From Candidatus Neomarinimicrobiota bacterium (GTDB taxonomy: Bacteria; Fidelibacterota; Marinisomatia; Marinisomatales; S15-B10), in contig DTTI01000005.1 in assembly GCA_012964825.1 (NCBI GenBank), positions 1-51,011 on the forward strand: a DNA stretch of 51,011 nucleotides, given 5' to 3'. Made by a program: the position numbers and the translations under genes. Below, piece after piece: positions 120 to 37,464 of the stretch. Position 1 is the first letter of the stretch, and each line of letters starts with the position of its first letter. The notes beneath the pieces were generated by a model. It did not search any database. It worked only from the letters and a program-made list of their open reading frames with translations, and was not told where the DNA came from.

Positions 120-1742
120 ATGATTAAATTGTTTTCTACCACTTTTTTCTTTTTTCTTATCTTTTTTTCTGTCCTTCATTCCCAGGTTTATTATGAAGCT
201 GATCCGTTTCGTTTATTGAGTTACGAAAAAAGTTATTTTGTAAGCGGCAGTTCGCCTGCATCGCTTCTTTTCAGACCCTCTTTCCAACCCATATCTGGAA
301 CACAAAATAACAGATGGTCTCTCACAGCTCGCGCTGAGTATTTTGAAAACAGCACCGCCCCAAATCTTGAAAACAGTTCAGTAAGGTGGATCGGTAAAGG
401 GATCAGTCGGTTTAGATCGTTACGGCTGTCTTATGCTGGAGAATATCTTTCTTTTGTTATCGAGCCCTATCATTTTGACAATGAGAATCTGGATTATACT
501 GTACCGGTAAGAAAGGGGATCTATAAAAGGATGAATGACAATAGGCCCCACGAAGAATCGCCCCTCGTTTTATCAGGTGTGCGAGAATTTCAGCTTCTGT
601 TCCACTTTCGTGGGTTAGGTGTAGGTGTCTCAAATGCTAATATGTGGTGGGGGCCAGGGTTACACAGTTCGCTGCAAATGTCTACAAATGCCTCTGGGTT
701 CAGATATTTTACGTTCGGCACTGTACACGAAAAGCGATTGAAAAATATCGGTTTTGATATCAAGTACATATTTTCACCTCTTGATGACAGGAATGTGGGC
801 GAGCCGTATTTCACCGCACTTCTCGCTTCATCAACATTCTACAGCAATCCCCAATTTACTTTTGGTTTTTCCAGATCGTATCTGTCCGGCCACGGGACTA
901 TGACACCCACAGCTTGGTCTTACATTTCTCTTGAAGACGCCATGATGCTTCCCTTTGAAGGGTTGTTTTTAAGTGAAAAACAGAAAGATCCTGATGTTCC
1001 TGAAAGTGCTGTTGACCTGTGGGATGAGATACTGGTGGCTTACTTGGTCACCTCTTTTCCTTCTTCAGGCCTGAAGATATATATTGAATACGGTCGGGAC
1101 GATCACGCCTGGGACTGGGATGACTTTTCCCGCCAGCCTGACCACTCCGGCGCCAGTGTTATAGGCCTACGGAAATATGGGCTTTTTGGTAATGAAAATA
1201 TCGTTGGGGGGATGGAATACACAGGCTTGATCAAGTCAAAATTTTGGACCAAGCGTGTTCCCGGGACTTGGTATAGTAAAGAAGTGTATGACTATAACAG
1301 CTATGACGGACGCTGGTGGGGAGCCCACAGCGGACCAGATTCAGATGATTTTTACATCTACTTGGGTTATATGGGTGAAAAGTTTTCTATCATTCCAGCC
1401 TTTAATTATGAACGGCACGGCGTTATTGACAATACAGCCTTGATTCTGGAAAAGAGGCCTTACCTCGTTTATAATCCCGATACAGGCAGGTGGGTGGCCG
1501 AAATCGTGGAACAGTGGCGTGAGAGGCAGGTCAATATCTGGCCAGAGGTGAAGATGGAATTCCGGCTGGATATCAGATATCGTTTCAAGGGATTCGACTT
1601 CAATTTTTACTACGAGGATGAAGTAGTGGATAATCTTGAATTCAATTGGGGAGAGAGAAGAGGAGAAGTTTGGTGGATTGGGGTTGAGAGGACCATAGAC
1701 AGCGAGGACTTCCGGGCATTTCGAAAAAGGAAATTGCCATAG
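120..1742 (+). CDS. Wzi-like capsule assembly outer-membrane beta-barrel protein
   Basis: The 540-residue protein begins with a signal peptide (hydrophobic residues about 5-19, cleavage near HSQ). It continues with alternating aromatic and polar strands as expected for an outer-membrane barrel. The motif NMWWGPG around residues 174-180 is typical of the Wzi capsule-assembly family, whose members help hold or export surface polysaccharide. A glycosyltransferase follows directly with a 4-nt overlap (ATAG), which supports a role in surface polysaccharide. The ATG at 120 is the natural start, although no clear Shine-Dalgarno precedes it. The family call rests on the motif and overall character, and the glycan is unknown. 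Confidence 0.7.
   Translation: MIKLFSTTFFFFLIFFSVLHSQVYYEADPFRLLSYEKSYFVSGSSPASLLFRPSFQPISGTQNNRWSLTARAEYFENSTAPNLENSSVRWIGKGISRFRSLRLSYAGEYLSFVIEPYHFDNENLDYTVPVRKGIYKRMNDNRPHEESPLVLSGVREFQLLFHFRGLGVGVSNANMWWGPGLHSSLQMSTNASGFRYFTFGTVHEKRLKNIGFDIKYIFSPLDDRNVGEPYFTALLASSTFYSNPQFTFGFSRSYLSGHGTMTPTAWSYISLEDAMMLPFEGLFLSEKQKDPDVPESAVDLWDEILVAYLVTSFPSSGLKIYIEYGRDDHAWDWDDFSRQPDHSGASVIGLRKYGLFGNENIVGGMEYTGLIKSKFWTKRVPGTWYSKEVYDYNSYDGRWWGAHSGPDSDDFYIYLGYMGEKFSIIPAFNYERHGVIDNTALILEKRPYLVYNPDTGRWVAEIVEQWRERQVNIWPEVKMEFRLDIRYRFKGFDFNFYYEDEVVDNLEFNWGERRGEVWWIGVERTIDSEDFRAFRKRKLP
1728..1741 (+). promoter_or_regulatory. Ribosome binding site with probable ATA start codon
   Basis: AGGAA at 1728-1732 lies six bases before ATA at 1739, inside the last codons of the Wzi-like gene. 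No ATG, GTG or TTG exists in the glycosyltransferase frame between the in-frame stop at 1685-1687 and TTG at 1814. TTG 1814 is too late because it would remove the first beta strand of the enzyme. ATA at 1739 overlaps the upstream TAG as ATAG. Confidence 0.5.
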
Positions 1743-2644
1743 AGGTTTCTGAGGGGCCAATTCTCTCTTTTGTTATTGTTACATTTAATTCCGAAGCTGA
1801 TATTGGCGCTTGTTTGGACTCAGTTCAATCCACTAACCAAAATGGCAGATTTCAAGTAATTGTCATCGACAATGCTTCTGAGGATAAAACGGTTGAAATA
1901 GTTAATCAAAAGAAAAATGACAATACTGTTTTTTTCCAAAATGAAAATAATGAAGGTTTCACCAAAGCTGTTAATCAAGGGGTTGAAAATGCCGGTGGAG
2001 AATATATTTTCATTCTCAATCCAGATACCCAAGTGACAGAAGAATCAGTGCTAAGGCTCATCAATAAACTTTCATCAGATAATCTGATCGGTCTGGTAGC
2101 ACCCCAGCTTCGTTTCCCTAGTGGAGGCATTCAGTACTCCTGCCGGCGGTTTCCAACATTTTGGAATGTAATAACGGAAATGACTGGCTTGAGCCGGGTT
2201 TTCAGTCAAAGTAATTTGTTTAATGGCTGGAAGATGAGAGACTTTAATCATGCAACTGAACGGGATGTGGACCAACCGGCAGGAGCAGCAATTTTAGTTA
2301 GAAAAGACTTACTTCTAAAGCTAGGTGGCCTGGATGAACGATTCCCAATGTTCTTCAGTGATGTTGACCTGTGCCGGCGAATCAAAGATTTAGGCAAAAG
2401 GGTTGTTTTTTGCCCTGATGCTGTTGTCACCCACAGAGGGGGGAGCACCACTCTTGGTCGTCGTCCCGGGCTCATTGCCAGTTCCCATTTCTCCCTAATC
2501 AAATATTTCATGAAACACCATCGGCGGATTGTTGATTTTATTCCCAATCTGATGATAATATTTCTCCTTCTGGTAACTCTACCTTTTCGGATTATAGGTA
2601 ATCTCTTGTTCCCAAGAAACAGGGTTGAGAGACAAACTTTGTAG
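1739..2644 (+). CDS. Family 2 glycosyltransferase (rhamnosyltransferase-like)
   Basis: This enzyme transfers a sugar from a nucleotide donor during surface polysaccharide synthesis. In this frame the protein begins near EVSEGPILSFVIVTFNSEAD, the canonical GT-A opening strand. The donor-binding region VIVIDNASEDKT, the NPDTQV motif in the DXD position and FSDVDLCRRIK follow. A hydrophobic segment near the C-terminus (MIIFLLLVTLPFRIIGNLLF) could anchor it to the inner membrane. Starting at TTG 1814 would delete the first beta strand, so translation must begin upstream. The best candidate is ATA 1739, giving 301 residues, which is the usual family length. The gene ends just before a strong hairpin terminator. 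Confidence 0.8.
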   Translation: MEVSEGPILSFVIVTFNSEADIGACLDSVQSTNQNGRFQVIVIDNASEDKTVEIVNQKKNDNTVFFQNENNEGFTKAVNQGVENAGGEYIFILNPDTQVTEESVLRLINKLSSDNLIGLVAPQLRFPSGGIQYSCRRFPTFWNVITEMTGLSRVFSQSNLFNGWKMRDFNHATERDVDQPAGAAILVRKDLLLKLGGLDERFPMFFSDVDLCRRIKDLGKRVVFCPDAVVTHRGGSTTLGRRPGLIASSHFSLIKYFMKHHRRIVDFIPNLMIIFLLLVTLPFRIIGNLLFPRNRVERQTL

Positions 2645-24027: not shown

Positions 24028-25341
24028 ATGAACAAGTCTTTATCTGATTCAAAGCAGGTCGTAACAAAACCGTATTTAATCCCATTTGTTCTTGTAGGAT
24101 TACTTTTCCCCCTTTGGGGATTTGCCAATGATATTACCAATCCTATGGTAGCGGCATTTAAAAACATATTGTTAGTCAGTAATTTTGAAAGTGCCTTGGT
24201 ACAATGTGCCTTCTATGGCGGATATTGTTTTATGGCAATCCCTGCCGCGATTTTCATCTGGCGATTTAATTATAAGCAGGCGATTCTAATGGGTTTGGCC
24301 CTTTATTCAATTGGATGTCTTATGTTTATACCCTCTGGAAAAATGATGGTTTTCGAGGCTTTCCTCTTCTCATATTTTGTCATGACTTGTGGCTTATCAT
24401 TTTTAGAAACGAGCGCAAACCCCTACATCCTGTCTATGGGCAATGAAGCCACTGCTACACAAAGATTGAACCTTGCCCAGGCCTTTAATCCTTTGGGATC
24501 TTTGATGGGAATGTTTATTGCCAAAGAATTTATTTTGGCTCGATTAAATTCTACTTCGGAAGCGGGGAGGTGGGAATTAGCGCAAAATGATCCCGGTTTA
24601 TTTACCCAAATTCAACAAAGTGACCTGAATGTGATTATTGGACCTTACTTGATGTTGGGGATTGTTGTCGCTTTTGTCTTTGTCATTTTCGCTATTACAA
24701 AATTGCCAGGTTCAAGAAATGAGAATGTGGACAAACTCAATCTCAGACCAACGCTGAAACGCTTATTTTCTAACAGGCTTTATTTAGAAGGGGTAGTTGC
24801 TCAGGCTTTTTACGTCGGGGCTCAAATCATGTGTTGGACATTTATAATTCATTACGGTGTGAATGAACTTGGAATGACCAAGGCAGAGGCGCAATCGTAT
24901 AACATGATTGCCATGGTCATTTTTGTCAGCAGCCGGTTTATTTGTACTTACCTTTTAAAATATATAAACCCCGGGCAATTATTAATGGGCCTGGCCTTGG
25001 GCGGCGGGGTGTTTACTTTAGGCACCATATTTATTTCTGGCATGATGGGGTTATATTCATTAGTTGCTGTTTCGGCCTGCATGTCCTTGATGTTTCCAAC
25101 CATATACGGCATCGCCCTCAAAGGATTAGGGGAGGATGCTAAAATTGGTTCTGCAGGATTAATTCTGGCCATCGGCGGCGGTTCTCTTATGCCGCCTCTG
25201 CAAGGGGCTATTATGGATATGTCATCCTTTTCCATGGGGGAATTAATGTTGTCCAGTACCCGGGTCAGCTTTTGTTTACCTGTTATTTGTTTTCTAGTTA
25301 TAGGATTTTTCGGCTGGAATACGGCCAGGAAACTACCGTAA
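24028..25341 (+). CDS. fucP: L-fucose:H+ symporter FucP
   Basis: FucP imports L-fucose with a proton across the inner membrane. The 437-residue MFS protein matches the E. coli length and has about twelve membrane segments. It carries the two key acidic residues of the family in context: GFANDITNP (Asp35, equivalent to E. coli Asp46) and FLETSANPYI (Glu127, equivalent to Glu135). FPTIYGIALKGLG is also typical. It heads the cytoplasmic half of the pathway and lies 17 bases before fucU. Confidence 0.95.
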   Translation: MNKSLSDSKQVVTKPYLIPFVLVGLLFPLWGFANDITNPMVAAFKNILLVSNFESALVQCAFYGGYCFMAIPAAIFIWRFNYKQAILMGLALYSIGCLMFIPSGKMMVFEAFLFSYFVMTCGLSFLETSANPYILSMGNEATATQRLNLAQAFNPLGSLMGMFIAKEFILARLNSTSEAGRWELAQNDPGLFTQIQQSDLNVIIGPYLMLGIVVAFVFVIFAITKLPGSRNENVDKLNLRPTLKRLFSNRLYLEGVVAQAFYVGAQIMCWTFIIHYGVNELGMTKAEAQSYNMIAMVIFVSSRFICTYLLKYINPGQLLMGLALGGGVFTLGTIFISGMMGLYSLVAVSACMSLMFPTIYGIALKGLGEDAKIGSAGLILAIGGGSLMPPLQGAIMDMSSFSMGELMLSSTRVSFCLPVICFLVIGFFGWNTARKLP

Positions 25342-25358
25342 ACTAAAACGGAAATAAT

Positions 25359-25790
25359 ATGCTAAAAGGTATATCACCATTCGTTTCACCGGATTTGCTT
25401 CACACTCTTCACCGGATGGGCCATGGGGATGAAATCGTTTTGGCTGACGCACATTTCCCGGGTGATTCATTAAATGACAATATCTTGAGGGCCGATGGCG
25501 TGAAAATTCAGGACTTATTAATGGGCATCCTACCATTGTTAGAAATTGATGATTATGTGGATGACCCAATTGTCATGATGGGAGCGGTTTCAGGTGATAC
25601 GCTGGATCCGACTGTGGAGGAAGCTTATTTAATCCCGATAAAAAAGTATGTCTCTGGAGCACCGGCCATAAAACGTATTGACCGCTTTACTTTTTATGAG
25701 CGAGCCAAAAATGCATTTGCCATTGTTGTCTCGGGAGAATTGGCGAAATACGGCAATATTATTCTCAAGAAAGGGGTAACACCGGTATAA
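25359..25790 (+). CDS. fucU: L-fucose mutarotase FucU
   Basis: FucU interconverts alpha and beta anomers of L-fucose so that imported sugar meets the anomer preference of the next enzyme. The 143-residue protein carries the RbsD/FucU signature HRMGHGDEIVLADAHFPGDS at residues 18-37 with catalytic His22. The C-terminal FYERAKNAFAIVVSGELAKYGN is also typical. Its length fits FucU rather than RbsD. It stands between fucP and the fuconate dehydratase gene with short gaps, in one transcription unit. Confidence 0.95.
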   Translation: MLKGISPFVSPDLLHTLHRMGHGDEIVLADAHFPGDSLNDNILRADGVKIQDLLMGILPLLEIDDYVDDPIVMMGAVSGDTLDPTVEEAYLIPIKKYVSGAPAIKRIDRFTFYERAKNAFAIVVSGELAKYGNIILKKGVTPV

Positions 25791-25797
25791 GGAATTT

Positions 25798-27132
25798 ATG
25801 AGCGTTACTCACATTACTGCTATAAACCCCCGAGATCTTCGCGTTCCAACCTCCGACGAATTATTGGGTTCGGATCCTTTTCATAAAAAACCAGATTATT
25901 CAGCCGTTTTAACCACCATAAAAAGTAGTTCGGGTAAGAGCGGTGTATCGGTTGTGTTTACCATTGGTGCCGGCAATGATTGGATCACTTATGGCATAAA
26001 ACAGTTAACCCCTCTGGTCCAGAGTATAACCCTCGATAGCTTTAAGGAGAATCCGGGAGAACTATATCAAACAATCCTTAATCACCACCAACTCCGGTGG
26101 CTGGGGGACGGTGTGTACAGGATGGCGATGGGTGGTGTGTTAAATGCCATGTGGGATCTATGGGCCAAGGATGAGGAGAAACCCTTATGGAAATTGCTGG
26201 TTGACTTGTCGCCTGATAAGGTGATCGATTGCATTGATTGGCGTCACTTGGAGGATGCATTATCCAAACAGGAAGCCCGGGAAATACTGGAAAAGAATCA
26301 ATCGCAGAAGACCAGTGCTGAAAAAAAACTTTTAGAGACTGGTGTTAAAGCCTATTCGACTGCCGGGTGGTTGGGGCTTTCCGATCAACAAATCCTCGAG
26401 AAAATAAATCAAATGAAAAGCGATGGTTTTGATTCTTTTAAACTCAAAATTGGCCAGGATTTAGAATTTGATAAAGCCAGATTCCAATTTATAAGAGAAG
26501 CGATTGGACCCGATTCAAACCTGATGCTGGATGCCAATCAATTCTGGGGTGTAGATGAAACTATTGCTTATATGCGTGAACTGGCTCATTTTGATATTAC
26601 CTGGATCGAAGAACCCACCAGTCGAGATGATGTATTGGGTTTTGATAAAATTTCAAAAGCGCTCAATCCACTGGGGATTCACGTCGCAGCGGGAGAACAA
26701 ATTCAATCTCCCGTCATTTTCAAGCAGATGCTCAGCAGCAGTGCAATACAATATGCACAAATTGATGCCTGTCGCATTGGAGGTGTAAACGATGTGATGG
26801 CAGTCATTCTCTTGGCAGCAAAATACAATGTGCCGGTTTGTCCACATGGCGGTGGTATTGGCTTATGTAATATGATCCGTCATTTTGCAATTTGGGACCA
26901 AATTTGTGTCGCCGGTCACTCTAACACCCAGTTAGTCGAATATATTGATTTTTTACAGGAAGATGTTTTTGAAAATCCGGTTGAAATATCTAACGGTGCC
27001 TATGTATTACCATCAAACCCGGGCTGGGGTTTAGAAATGGATCATGAATTCATTGAGAATCATATTTATCCAAATGGATCGGTCTGGAAAGACAGGCAGG
27101 AAAACAGTGGTGTCACATTTTTGGCAAACTAA
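25798..27132 (+). CDS. L-fuconate dehydratase (enolase superfamily)
   Basis: The enzyme dehydrates L-fuconate to 2-keto-3-deoxy-L-fuconate. In 444 residues it shows the mandelate-racemase subgroup layout: SFKLKIG with catalytic Lys217, metal ligands in LMLDANQFW (Asp245), ITWIEEP (Glu271) and AAGEQIQ (Glu300), and the general base in VCPHGGGIGL (His350). These positions agree closely with those I recall for the Xanthomonas enzyme. The start ATG 25798 has AAGGA five bases upstream. With FucP, FucU and fuconolactonase nearby the assignment is strong. Confidence 0.94.
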   Translation: MSVTHITAINPRDLRVPTSDELLGSDPFHKKPDYSAVLTTIKSSSGKSGVSVVFTIGAGNDWITYGIKQLTPLVQSITLDSFKENPGELYQTILNHHQLRWLGDGVYRMAMGGVLNAMWDLWAKDEEKPLWKLLVDLSPDKVIDCIDWRHLEDALSKQEAREILEKNQSQKTSAEKKLLETGVKAYSTAGWLGLSDQQILEKINQMKSDGFDSFKLKIGQDLEFDKARFQFIREAIGPDSNLMLDANQFWGVDETIAYMRELAHFDITWIEEPTSRDDVLGFDKISKALNPLGIHVAAGEQIQSPVIFKQMLSSSAIQYAQIDACRIGGVNDVMAVILLAAKYNVPVCPHGGGIGLCNMIRHFAIWDQICVAGHSNTQLVEYIDFLQEDVFENPVEISNGAYVLPSNPGWGLEMDHEFIENHIYPNGSVWKDRQENSGVTFLAN

Positions 27133-27138
27133 TGATTG

Positions 27139-27153
27139 AAGGGGATTTCATTG
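27139..27153 (+). promoter_or_regulatory. Ribosome binding site setting a TTG start
   Basis: AAGGGG at 27139-27144 lies six bases before TTG 27151, which gives the normal SDR N-terminus RQFDLSGKHAVITGG. A TTG at 27136 in the same frame has no such site. Confidence 0.6.
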
Positions 27154-27930
27154 CGTCAATTTGATCTTTCAGGAAAACACGCGGTAATTACCGGTGGAAA
27201 CAGCGGTATTGGAAACAGTATTGCAAGGACCTTAGCCGAAAATGGTGCCTGTGTTCATATTTTGGATCTGGTAGAAGAGCAAGGGAAATCGGTCATCCAA
27301 GCACTTGAAGCAGAAAAGTACAAAGCAACTTTTCATATCTGCGATGTAAGTAAACAGAAAAATGTAATGACAGTGTTTCAGATTATCGCCAAAGATCACC
27401 CAATTGATATCCTGGTGAATAATGCGGGTATTGCCAATATCGGCAATGCGGAGAATACTTCAGAAAAAGACTTTGACCAAGTTTACGCTGTGAATGTGAA
27501 AGGTATTTATAATTGTTTGCATGCCTGTATACCCATCATGAAATCAAATGGCGGTGGTGTAATCCTCAATCTGGCATCGATTGCGGCTTCGGTGGGGCTT
27601 CCTGACCGCTTTGCTTATTCCATGAGTAAGGGTGCTGTGGTGAGCATGACATTATCGGTGGCAAAGGATTATCTTTCCGATAATATCCGATGCAATAGTA
27701 TTTCACCGGCGAGAATTCATACCCCTTTTGTTGATGGGTTCTTGAAAAAGAATTATCCAGGAAAAGAGGAAGAAATGTTTAAAAAGCTAGAAAAAACTCA
27801 GCCCATCGGCCGAATGGGTCGACCGGAAGAAGTTGCCAGCCTCGCACTTTTTCTTTGTTCAAACGAAGCAGCTTTCATTACAGGCGTTGATTATCCTATT
27901 GATGGTGGATCTATTAACCTAAATACATAA
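27151..27930 (+). CDS. SDR dehydrogenase, probable 2-keto-3-deoxy-L-fuconate 4-dehydrogenase
   Basis: This is a classical short-chain dehydrogenase of 259 residues. It has the cofactor motif TGGNSGIG, NNAG, the catalytic Ser in NLASIAAS and YSMSK (Tyr/Lys). The C-terminal GVDYPIDGG ends the fold. Being next to fuconate dehydratase, it most likely oxidises the 2-keto-3-deoxy product to the 2,4-diketo acid. The second SDR of the operon could instead do this step, because family membership alone does not fix the substrate. TTG 27151 is preferred as the start. Confidence 0.8.
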   Translation: MRQFDLSGKHAVITGGNSGIGNSIARTLAENGACVHILDLVEEQGKSVIQALEAEKYKATFHICDVSKQKNVMTVFQIIAKDHPIDILVNNAGIANIGNAENTSEKDFDQVYAVNVKGIYNCLHACIPIMKSNGGGVILNLASIAASVGLPDRFAYSMSKGAVVSMTLSVAKDYLSDNIRCNSISPARIHTPFVDGFLKKNYPGKEEEMFKKLEKTQPIGRMGRPEEVASLALFLCSNEAAFITGVDYPIDGGSINLNT

Positions 27931-27972
27931 TGAAATTGATAAGATTTGGCGATGCAGGCAGAAGTATACCTC

Positions 27973-28803
27973 ATGAAAATTGATTCCCATCAGCATTTTT
28001 GGCACTATGACCCTGTTCAATATGATTGGATTGATGGACGTATGGCGCGACTAAAGAATGATTTTCTTCCACCGCAATTAGGACGCTTACTGAAAAACAA
28101 CGCGTTTGATGGATGTGTTGCTGTCCAGGCGCGACAAACAGAAGAAGAAACAACATTCTTGTTAAATCTGGCCGATCAGTTTGATTTTATTAAAGGTGTG
28201 GTCGGGTGGGTAGATTTGTGTAACTCGAATGTGAAAGAAACGTTGGCCCATTTTTCCCAATCAAAAAAACTGTGCGGGATCCGACATGTCATCCAGGATG
28301 AGCAGGATGACCATTTCATGCTCAGAGATGATTTTCAGCAGGGAATAAGTACATTGGCAGCCTTTGATCTGGCTTTCGATATTTTGATTTATCCCAACCA
28401 CCTTGAGCCAGCATGGAAACTAGTGCACGATTTCCCAAACCAGCGTTTTGTCATTGACCATATTTCGAAACCATTCATCAAGGAAAGAAAGATTGATTCT
28501 TGGCTAGCTGATATACAACGAATGGCCGAATTACCCAATGTATGTTGCAAAGTTTCAGGCATGGTCACTGAAGCCTCATGGGATAGTTGGCATCCCTCTG
28601 ATTTTACGCCTTATCTGGATGTGGTGTTTGAAAGTTTCGGTGTCGATAGGATTATGGTAGGCTCTGATTGGCCAGTTTGTCTCTTAGCCGGTAGTTATAA
28701 TGAGGTAATAGGGATTGTAACTAATTATATTTCTAGTCTTAAGCCGGATGCTAAACAAGAAATTTTGGGTTTGAATGCCCGTGATTTCTATAAATTGAAA
28801 TGA
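27973..28803 (+). CDS. L-fuconolactonase (amidohydrolase, COG3618)
   Basis: It hydrolyses L-fucono-lactone to L-fuconate. The 276-residue protein opens MKIDSHQHFWHYDPVQYDWI, with the HxH metal pair near the start. It contains GIRHVIQDEQDDHFMLRDDF, FVIDHISKP, CCKVSGM and VGSDWPVC, a set characteristic of this amidohydrolase subgroup. ATG 27973 removes nine implausible lead residues of a longer frame that begins at TTG 27946. Its place between the two SDR genes fits the order of oxidation, lactone opening, dehydration and second oxidation. Confidence 0.92.
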   Translation: MKIDSHQHFWHYDPVQYDWIDGRMARLKNDFLPPQLGRLLKNNAFDGCVAVQARQTEEETTFLLNLADQFDFIKGVVGWVDLCNSNVKETLAHFSQSKKLCGIRHVIQDEQDDHFMLRDDFQQGISTLAAFDLAFDILIYPNHLEPAWKLVHDFPNQRFVIDHISKPFIKERKIDSWLADIQRMAELPNVCCKVSGMVTEASWDSWHPSDFTPYLDVVFESFGVDRIMVGSDWPVCLLAGSYNEVIGIVTNYISSLKPDAKQEILGLNARDFYKLK

Positions 28804-28804
28804 G

Positions 28805-28816
28805 AGGAATTCCATA
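28805..28816 (+). promoter_or_regulatory. Ribosome binding site with probable ATA start codon
   Basis: AGGAA at 28805-28809 is followed by TTCC and ATA at 28814. No ATG, GTG or TTG exists in this frame from the stop at 28796-28798 up to GTG 28892, which would cut off the nucleotide-binding motif. The local sequence AGGAATTCCATAGA closely resembles the site at 1728-1742 before the first glycosyltransferase. Confidence 0.5.
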
Positions 28817-29608
28817 GATCTAAAAATAGAAAATAAAATCATTATCATTACCGGCGGGGCCAAAGGTATTGGTGAAGCAATTACCCGCTGTGTGGCTGCC
28901 GAAGGAGGTATCTCGGTTATTATCGGACGATCCAAAAAAACGGGAGAAAACCTACAAAAAGAATTGAATAATGAGGGTCATGAAGCTTTGGCGTTATTTT
29001 ACGAGCTGGGGCCGGCTGAAAATTGTGAAGCTGCCGTCTCCCAGGTGGTGGATAAATATGGACAAATTGATGCTTTAGTTAATAATGCTGGGGTCAACGA
29101 TGGGGTTGGTTTAGAAAATGGTAACCCCGAAAAATTCCTGGGTTCCATGGGAAATAATCTCTTTCACTATTATTATATGGCCCATTATTGCCTTCCGGCA
29201 CTCAAAAAATCTCAGGGAAGCATTCTTAATGTGAGTTCCAAAACGGCTGTTACCGGCCAAGGGAATACGGCTGGGTATGCCGCTTCTAAAGGCGCCCATT
29301 TAGCATTGACCAGGGAATGGGCAGTCGAACTATTAAAATATAATATCCGCGTAAATGCAATCGTCCCAGCAGAAGTGATGACCCCGCTTTATAAAAAATG
29401 GTTAGATACATTTGATGATCCTGACACAAAGCGAAGGGAGATTGAAAAAAATATTCCCCTGGGTAACCGAATGACAACCGCAGAAGAAATTGCGGATATG
29501 GCCGTATTCCTGATTTCTGAACGTGCTTCACACATCACGGGTCAGCATATTTTTGTCGATGGCGGATATGTTCATTTGGATCGTTCTCTTTCTGTATTAG
29601 GGGGATAA
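28814..29608 (+). CDS. SDR dehydrogenase, probable L-fucose 1-dehydrogenase
   Basis: This short-chain dehydrogenase would oxidise L-fucose to the lactone, the first step of the pathway. The cofactor motif TGGAKGIG lies upstream of the first GTG (28892), so the gene must begin earlier. ATA 28814 with AGGAA upstream gives 264 residues starting DLKIENKIIIITGG. NNAGVND, NVSSKTAV, YAASKGAHLALTREWA and GQHIFVDGGYVH complete the fold. The function is inferred from the pathway, since some fucose dehydrogenase must feed the lactonase. The two SDRs could be exchanged in role. Confidence 0.75.
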   Translation: MDLKIENKIIIITGGAKGIGEAITRCVAAEGGISVIIGRSKKTGENLQKELNNEGHEALALFYELGPAENCEAAVSQVVDKYGQIDALVNNAGVNDGVGLENGNPEKFLGSMGNNLFHYYYMAHYCLPALKKSQGSILNVSSKTAVTGQGNTAGYAASKGAHLALTREWAVELLKYNIRVNAIVPAEVMTPLYKKWLDTFDDPDTKRREIEKNIPLGNRMTTAEEIADMAVFLISERASHITGQHIFVDGGYVHLDRSLSVLGG

Positions 29609-36637: not shown

Positions 36638-37464
36638 CCGAGAATGGCTTCCATTCTTTGTTCACACTTTTCAGCTTCCGCCGTCCGCCCACGTTTTCGA
36701 GCACCGTTGGAGAAAATTTTTGTCTTTTCTTGCAACATTTGTTTGGCATCATTGAGATTCTCATCACTCAGATTGCCAGACAGGATGATATTTTCCAGAG
36801 CCTGAATACGGAACCGGTCCATTCCCCAATATTTTTCCGACAGCTGATTCTGGTGACCGCCATGCTTTACAACCAGTTTTTCAGAGATATAGAGCACCGG
36901 ATAACTTGAGGTGACGCGAAGCCACAGATCATAATCTTCACAGGCAGGGAGAGATTCTTCAAAAAGTCCCACATTATCAAAAACAGATCTGTGAATCATA
37001 GCACTTGAAGGTGAAATGCAGCAGATAGGTAGGGCCTTTTTAAACATCCAGCCGCCGGACTTGGAATGCTTTTTCAAGGGGTTCACCCGCTTACCATTTC
37101 TAATCCAAATTTCATCACTGTGGCAGATTTTCATGGCTGGTGCCAAATTCAAAACCTCCATTTGTCGAGCCAGTTTTTCGGGAAGCCATTCGTCATCGGA
37201 ATCAAGAAATGCTAACCATTCACATGATGTGGCAGTTATGCCGGCATTCCTGGCAGCACTGACACCGAGGTTATCTTGTTTCAAATATTTGATCTCGGGA
37301 TAGTTCTTTTTTATAAGCTTTTCTGTACCATCAGTGGAACCGTCATCCACGATAATCACAGAATGAGGGGGAAGGGTCTGGCTGAGAATAGAATCGACAG
37401 CCCTAGGAAGAAGGTGTGCGCGATTAAAGGTTGGGATAATTGCGGAGATCCGGGGGGAACTCAC
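36634..37464 (-). CDS. Family 2 glycosyltransferase
   Basis: This 276-residue GT-A enzyme opens ISAIIPTFNRAHLLPRAVDS and has VIIVDDGSTDGTE, the acceptor/donor region NAGITATSCEWLAFLDSDDEW with its DXD-like DSDD, and CEDYDLWLR. It would transfer a sugar to a lipid or polysaccharide acceptor at the cytoplasmic face. No membrane segment is visible. It sits just after glyS (three-base gap) and overlaps the phosphorylase-like gene, an unusual neighbourhood for a polysaccharide gene. Confidence 0.9.
   Translation of the reverse strand: MSSPRISAIIPTFNRAHLLPRAVDSILSQTLPPHSVIIVDDGSTDGTEKLIKKNYPEIKYLKQDNLGVSAARNAGITATSCEWLAFLDSDDEWLPEKLARQMEVLNLAPAMKICHSDEIWIRNGKRVNPLKKHSKSGGWMFKKALPICCISPSSAMIHRSVFDNVGLFEESLPACEDYDLWLRVTSSYPVLYISEKLVVKHGGHQNQLSEKYWGMDRFRIQALENIILSGNLSDENLNDAKQMLQEKTKIFSNGARKRGRTAEAEKCEQRMEAILG

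Follow-up and report, generated by a model that had tools for sequence, protein, structure and literature searches.

We analysed a stretch of 51,011 nucleotides (hereafter the window), contig C5 in the draft genome of a Candidatus Neomarinimicrobiota bacterium (G000; 2.21 Mb, 84 contigs, 97.6% complete). It carries an L-fucose operon at 24028-29608 with sulfatases on both sides. Reading on the forward strand, the operon encodes an L-fucose:H+ symporter, FucP (24028..25341; TIGR00885, 521 bits, cut-off 280), an L-fucose mutarotase (25359..25790; NF011949, 193 bits, cut-off 141), an enolase-superfamily sugar-acid dehydratase (25798..27132; PF13378) that is by context the L-fuconate dehydratase, and a first short-chain dehydrogenase (SDR) given with a TTG start in the ORF list (27136..27930; PF13561/PF00106). 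These are followed by an L-fucono-1,5-lactonase-like amidohydrolase (27946..28803; PF04909; 271 bits against NF052480, under its cut-off of 400), the immediate operon partner of the last gene. This last gene (28814..29608, +) encodes a second SDR, an L-fucose dehydrogenase of 264 amino acids with an inferred ATA start at 28814-28816 and a TAA stop. The product of 28814-29608 scored 406.4 bits against the NCBIfam L-fucose dehydrogenase profile NF052481 (cut-off 300), with query residues 1-259 aligned to profile positions 1-257 of 257, making it a full-length member of that family, and it matched PDB entry 4gkb from residue 1 (1.6e-91). Residue 1 of both NF052481 and 4gkb pairs with the ATA codon.

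The reading frame of the dehydrogenase is bounded on its upstream side by an in-frame TGA (28796-28798), and from there to GTG 28892 neither the sequence nor the ORF list offers an ATG, GTG or TTG in frame. That GTG, the first canonical start, is already within the Rossmann fold, and a protein begun at it would lack the nucleotide-binding motif TGGAKGIG. At the codon aligned to ATA 28814-28816, homologues from other genomes carry ATG in 79 of 80 cases and ATT in the other (mostly Bacteroidota; 57-68% identity), and a 75% identical ortholog in genome G052 reads AAGGGAAATCTC-ATG-GAC; no ortholog was found within the genus. From 28800 onward the sequence is ATGAGAGGAATTCCATAGATCTAAAAATAG, with AGGAA at 28805-28809 and a Shine-Dalgarno-like AGAGGA (28803..28808, +) placed 5 nt before the ATA, in a genome whose Shine-Dalgarno motifs are moderately enriched at spacings of about 5-7. 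A second in-frame ATA at 28826 was rejected, as it is poorly spaced from the Shine-Dalgarno and drops four residues present in homologues. Since homologues place ATG here, residue 1 of both references falls on this codon, AGAGGA is well spaced and ATA 28826 is a poor candidate, ATA 28814-28816 is on this evidence the start position of the L-fucose dehydrogenase gene, and we infer that ribosomes initiate there; the original prediction had argued that this gene needs ATA as its start, and with no canonical alternative and 79 of 80 homologues starting at ATG we reach the same position. RNA structure at the ATA 28814 site gave no signal (z 0.27). In a Sphingobacteriales MAG (L209:5200, +), the L-fucose dehydrogenase gene carries ATT at this start position.

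A similar context had been pointed out at 1728-1743 of the window, and the likeness is real (AGGAAATTGCCATAGA is present there). The gene concerned is a family-2 glycosyltransferase (1739..2644, +; PF00535 from residue 10) and not an SDR; its inferred start is ATA 1739-1741, which is preceded by AGGA at 1728-1731 and overlapped by the stop of the upstream ORF (TAG 1740-1742). The next ATG, GTG or TTG in its frame, TTG 1814, is inside the GT2 domain, leaving no canonical alternative, and the closest ortholog among those listed (G006, 52%) has its ATG roughly one codon further upstream than the alignment would place it. It had further been suggested that AUA is perhaps used in a fixed context, which the data do not support. 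The string AGGAA-N2-6-CCATAGA occurs at exactly two sites on both strands of 1.79 Mb, both in the window, and because about one occurrence is expected from base count the shared string is weak evidence alone. At the two further ATA sites described below (GAGGTCAGAACC-ATA-GGA and GGGGGCAAC-ATA-GCC) AGGAA..CCATAGA is absent, and one ATA ortholog has a C right after the ATA. A blind scan of codons behind Shine-Dalgarno motifs in genes lacking a start found ATA twice (1.27 expected) and no near-cognate codon enriched, the scan being too noisy; the case for ATA starts therefore rests on homology.

Two more genes have ATA in the start position. An AP-superfamily lipoprotein gene (C84:90885-92243) starts at GTCAGAACC-ATA-GGA in this genome, at GTCAAAACC-ATA-CGA in the sister species G001 and at GTCAGAACC-ATG-CGA in G002, while its orthologs elsewhere in the family are without a well-placed canonical start (likeliest start ATC in G007; ATT or GTC in G003). 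A signal-peptide gene (C75:11813) reads GGGGGCAAC-ATA-GCC in G000, G001 and G002, three genomes of one genus. In a published reconstruction of ancestral AUG starts, one of 61,358 had switched to AUU and two to CUG (PMC5622118), and with such switches so rare it is unusual for sister species to alternate between ATA and ATG. The earlier view that these starts are not an isolated error and that AUA serves for initiation in this organism is thus strengthened by the lipoprotein ATA in two species, its ATG counterpart and the C75:11813 ATA in three, and the organism probably does initiate translation at AUA.

The same comparisons bear on whether the true codon at 28814 is ATG and the A a consensus error or minor allele. 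The assembly behind the window is indeed a draft in 84 contigs, and a murG-like ORF on C58 (11195-11806, -) opens in the middle of the protein directly behind a stop, a sign of a frameshift, of occasional indel or other assembly errors, or of broken genes. Against this, ATA is found in the separate assemblies G000 and G001 with diverged flanks, the C75:11813 ATA recurs in three species, and an AUC start of rsmI (below) is seen in seven genomes. Sequencing error fails for the ATA class because the same start type appears in separate assemblies, and we regard such an artefact at 28814 as improbable; low-level use of unusual start codons looks real rather than a sequencing mistake. We give an even smaller chance to a recent loss of the start that has left a decaying pseudogene making little protein. 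A change from ATG to ATA is a typical inactivating one and the missing same-genus ortholog would suit decay, but the frame is intact over 264 codons, the NF052481 score is far over its cut-off, the surrounding fucose operon is otherwise well populated, the Shine-Dalgarno spacing is good, and similar codons are kept in several genes over genus and family distances.

The fucose site also contains a mini-ORF of five sense codons, ATG AGA GGA ATT CCA TAG (28800..28817, +), which, as the original prediction had it, ends on the ATAG. Its ATG at 28800 overlaps the lactonase stop TGA 28801-28803 (as ATGA) and its TAG at 28815-28817 overlaps the ATA start (as ATAG), so translational coupling through it is possible. 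Ribosomes that began at ATG 28800 might terminate at TAG 28815-28817 and reinitiate on the overlapping ATA, or might shift into the frame of the SDR, an unlikely route that would add to AUA initiation rather than exclude it. In its favor are the two overlaps at 28800-28817 and the ATAG overlaps at the glycosyltransferase (1739) and, by sequence reading, at C75:11813; opposing it, the mini-ORF is absent from the G052 ortholog (L009: TTAAGGGAAATCTCATGGAC) and so gains no support from it, it holds no slippery heptamer for a frameshift, and the lipoprotein gene C84:90885-92243 has no such overlap. Counted genome-wide, 4-nt overlaps show only a mild excess of ATA (27, vs 14 for CTA, 15 for GTA and 17 for TTA), and among the ATA overlaps only the glycosyltransferase at 1739 stood out. 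A genome-wide reinitiation class of ATAG/ATAA overlaps was accordingly dropped, the excess being mild and a canonical start mostly nearby. Known stop-start overlaps with coupling (ATGA, TAATG) resemble the ATAG overlap at three ATA sites here, although they use canonical starts whereas ATAG requires an AUA start. Coupling may help AUA initiation at the dehydrogenase gene, yet the evidence does not demand it.

The earlier claim had singled out AUA, but AUC (rsmI, infC and a lolD-like gene), AUU (ispE) and CUG (tsaB) appear to be used as well. The likeliest starts of infC (AUC), ispE (AUU) and the lolD-like gene (AUC) come from profile alignments and spacing. For tsaB, CTG is found in G000, G001, G002, G003 and G007 and ATG or GTG in other genera; a TTG a few codons downstream is possible in G000-G002 and not in G003 or G007. 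Several of the near-cognate starts listed have a single genome and spacing as their basis, a GUC start of lpxA is indicated by Shine-Dalgarno spacing only, and the starts of an M20 peptidase (C84) and a methyltransferase (C77) are ambiguous. Other candidates were rejected: valS, guaB-like, FtsK-like and further genes have an ATG, GTG or TTG at a plausible start just downstream, and several reciprocal-hit candidates are likely antisense or non-coding frames or have a canonical start close by.

Hand inspection of 227 ortholog pairs between G000 and G003 (covering 81% of G000, 1.79 Mb, and 0.4 Mb of G003) gave two near-cognate genes for G000 and three for G003. About 1% of genes (roughly ten in the genome) thus appear to start at near-cognate codons, a figure that stands for these 227 pairs with hand curation of a few cases and is not a census. 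In a Bacteroidota control, 1 of 409 genes was without a canonical start, an L-fucose dehydrogenase with ATT; the control genes, each with at least 3 homologues, came from the homologous loci examined, and the comparison is rough, with small numbers and a screen not identical to that of G000 and G003. Standard gene finders accept ATG, GTG and TTG only, and near-cognate genes would therefore be truncated or lost in annotation; the dehydrogenase would be left without its nucleotide-binding motif.

We consider it likely that ATA 28814 is a real start that was formerly ATG, is reached through its Shine-Dalgarno and belongs to one of about ten near-cognate genes in a habit common to the family. A G-to-A change would have turned the ancestral ATG into ATA 28814-28816, to which AGAGGA, 5 nt upstream, would bring ribosomes, probably with help from those finishing the lactonase gene just upstream. 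The initiator tRNA (CAU) would read AUA with a third-position C-A mismatch, and synthesis of the dehydrogenase would be reduced but sufficient; both the efficiency of initiation at ATA 28814 and the lactonase coupling are what we infer here. The dehydrogenase would then be one of roughly ten genes starting at AUA, AUU, AUC or CUG in a family-wide habit.

An unusual IF3 had been raised as something to check; the one gene found has a normal family match and no unusual feature was noticed. One tRNA-Met (L055) bears the initiator hallmarks (CAU anticodon, three G-C pairs and a position 1-72 mismatch), and no special cause for near-cognate starts is visible in IF3 or the initiator tRNA. AUA initiation is known in Staphylococcus aureus infC, ccpN and citZ, and AUA of ccpN and citZ gives about 10-30% of AUG in reporters (PMC13009471), levels at which ordinary near-cognate initiation suffices. 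The S. aureus genes (infC, ccpN and citZ with AUA, cvfC1 with AUU; PMC13009471) resemble those described here in using AUA or AUU in ordinary genes with an upstream Shine-Dalgarno, and both groups are in part conserved between relatives. They differ in that the four S. aureus cases are experimentally shown whereas ours are known from sequence alone, in that the S. aureus sites have extended Shine-Dalgarno motifs whereas that of the fucose site has six bases in a genome of moderate Shine-Dalgarno use, and in that AUC and CUG starts are also used here, unlike in the S. aureus set.

In the family of this bacterium (f1), rsmI (G000:C12:4677 region) is without a canonical start in all 8 genomes in which it was found, the start codon being AUC in 7 and another AUH codon in the other. 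Outside the order, each of the 68 genomes sampled has an ATG, GTG or TTG start; inside the order most families have a canonical rsmI start, and the gene is also without one in the few genomes seen of families f3 and f4. The rsmI product methylates C1402, a P-site nucleotide of 16S rRNA implicated in start-codon selection. In E. coli this methylation is reported to hold back initiation at non-AUG codons (PMC7694415). Relaxed start-codon choice (about 1% AUA, AUU, AUC and CUG) together with the AUC of rsmI might form a second, IF3-like fidelity feedback loop, an idea we hold only tentatively and with some doubt; if true, low methylation would lead to better rsmI translation. A possible precedent is the autoregulation of infC (IF3) via a non-AUG start: infC of this genome likeliest starts at AUC, and rsmI may be wired alike, its weak start being kept among relatives. 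A loop of this kind on rsmI is possible and a reasonable hypothesis, whereas no feedback is expected for L-fucose dehydrogenase, because the enzyme has no initiation role. A literature search of open-licence papers found none on rsmI start-codon autoregulation; the conserved AUC provides a directly testable hypothesis on the balance of start-codon fidelity.

Separately, in-frame TGA codons were seen in two genes. A Bcp-type peroxiredoxin (G000:C84, ORF after the stop near 28401, +; ortholog in G003:C12) has a TGA (TPG-TGA-TIEA) at the expected catalytic Cys position in two genomes, where it is a probable selenocysteine, and a nucleotidase-like gene (G000:C76:13171-14172, -) has one in DPCG-TGA-KRNPTGG that is possibly selenocysteine. 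No tRNA-Sec was listed in the scanned 81% of the G000 genome. A SelB-like GTPase of 638 amino acids (AGHIDHGKTTLVKALTG; G000:C58, ORF at 36696, +) fits selenocysteine use.
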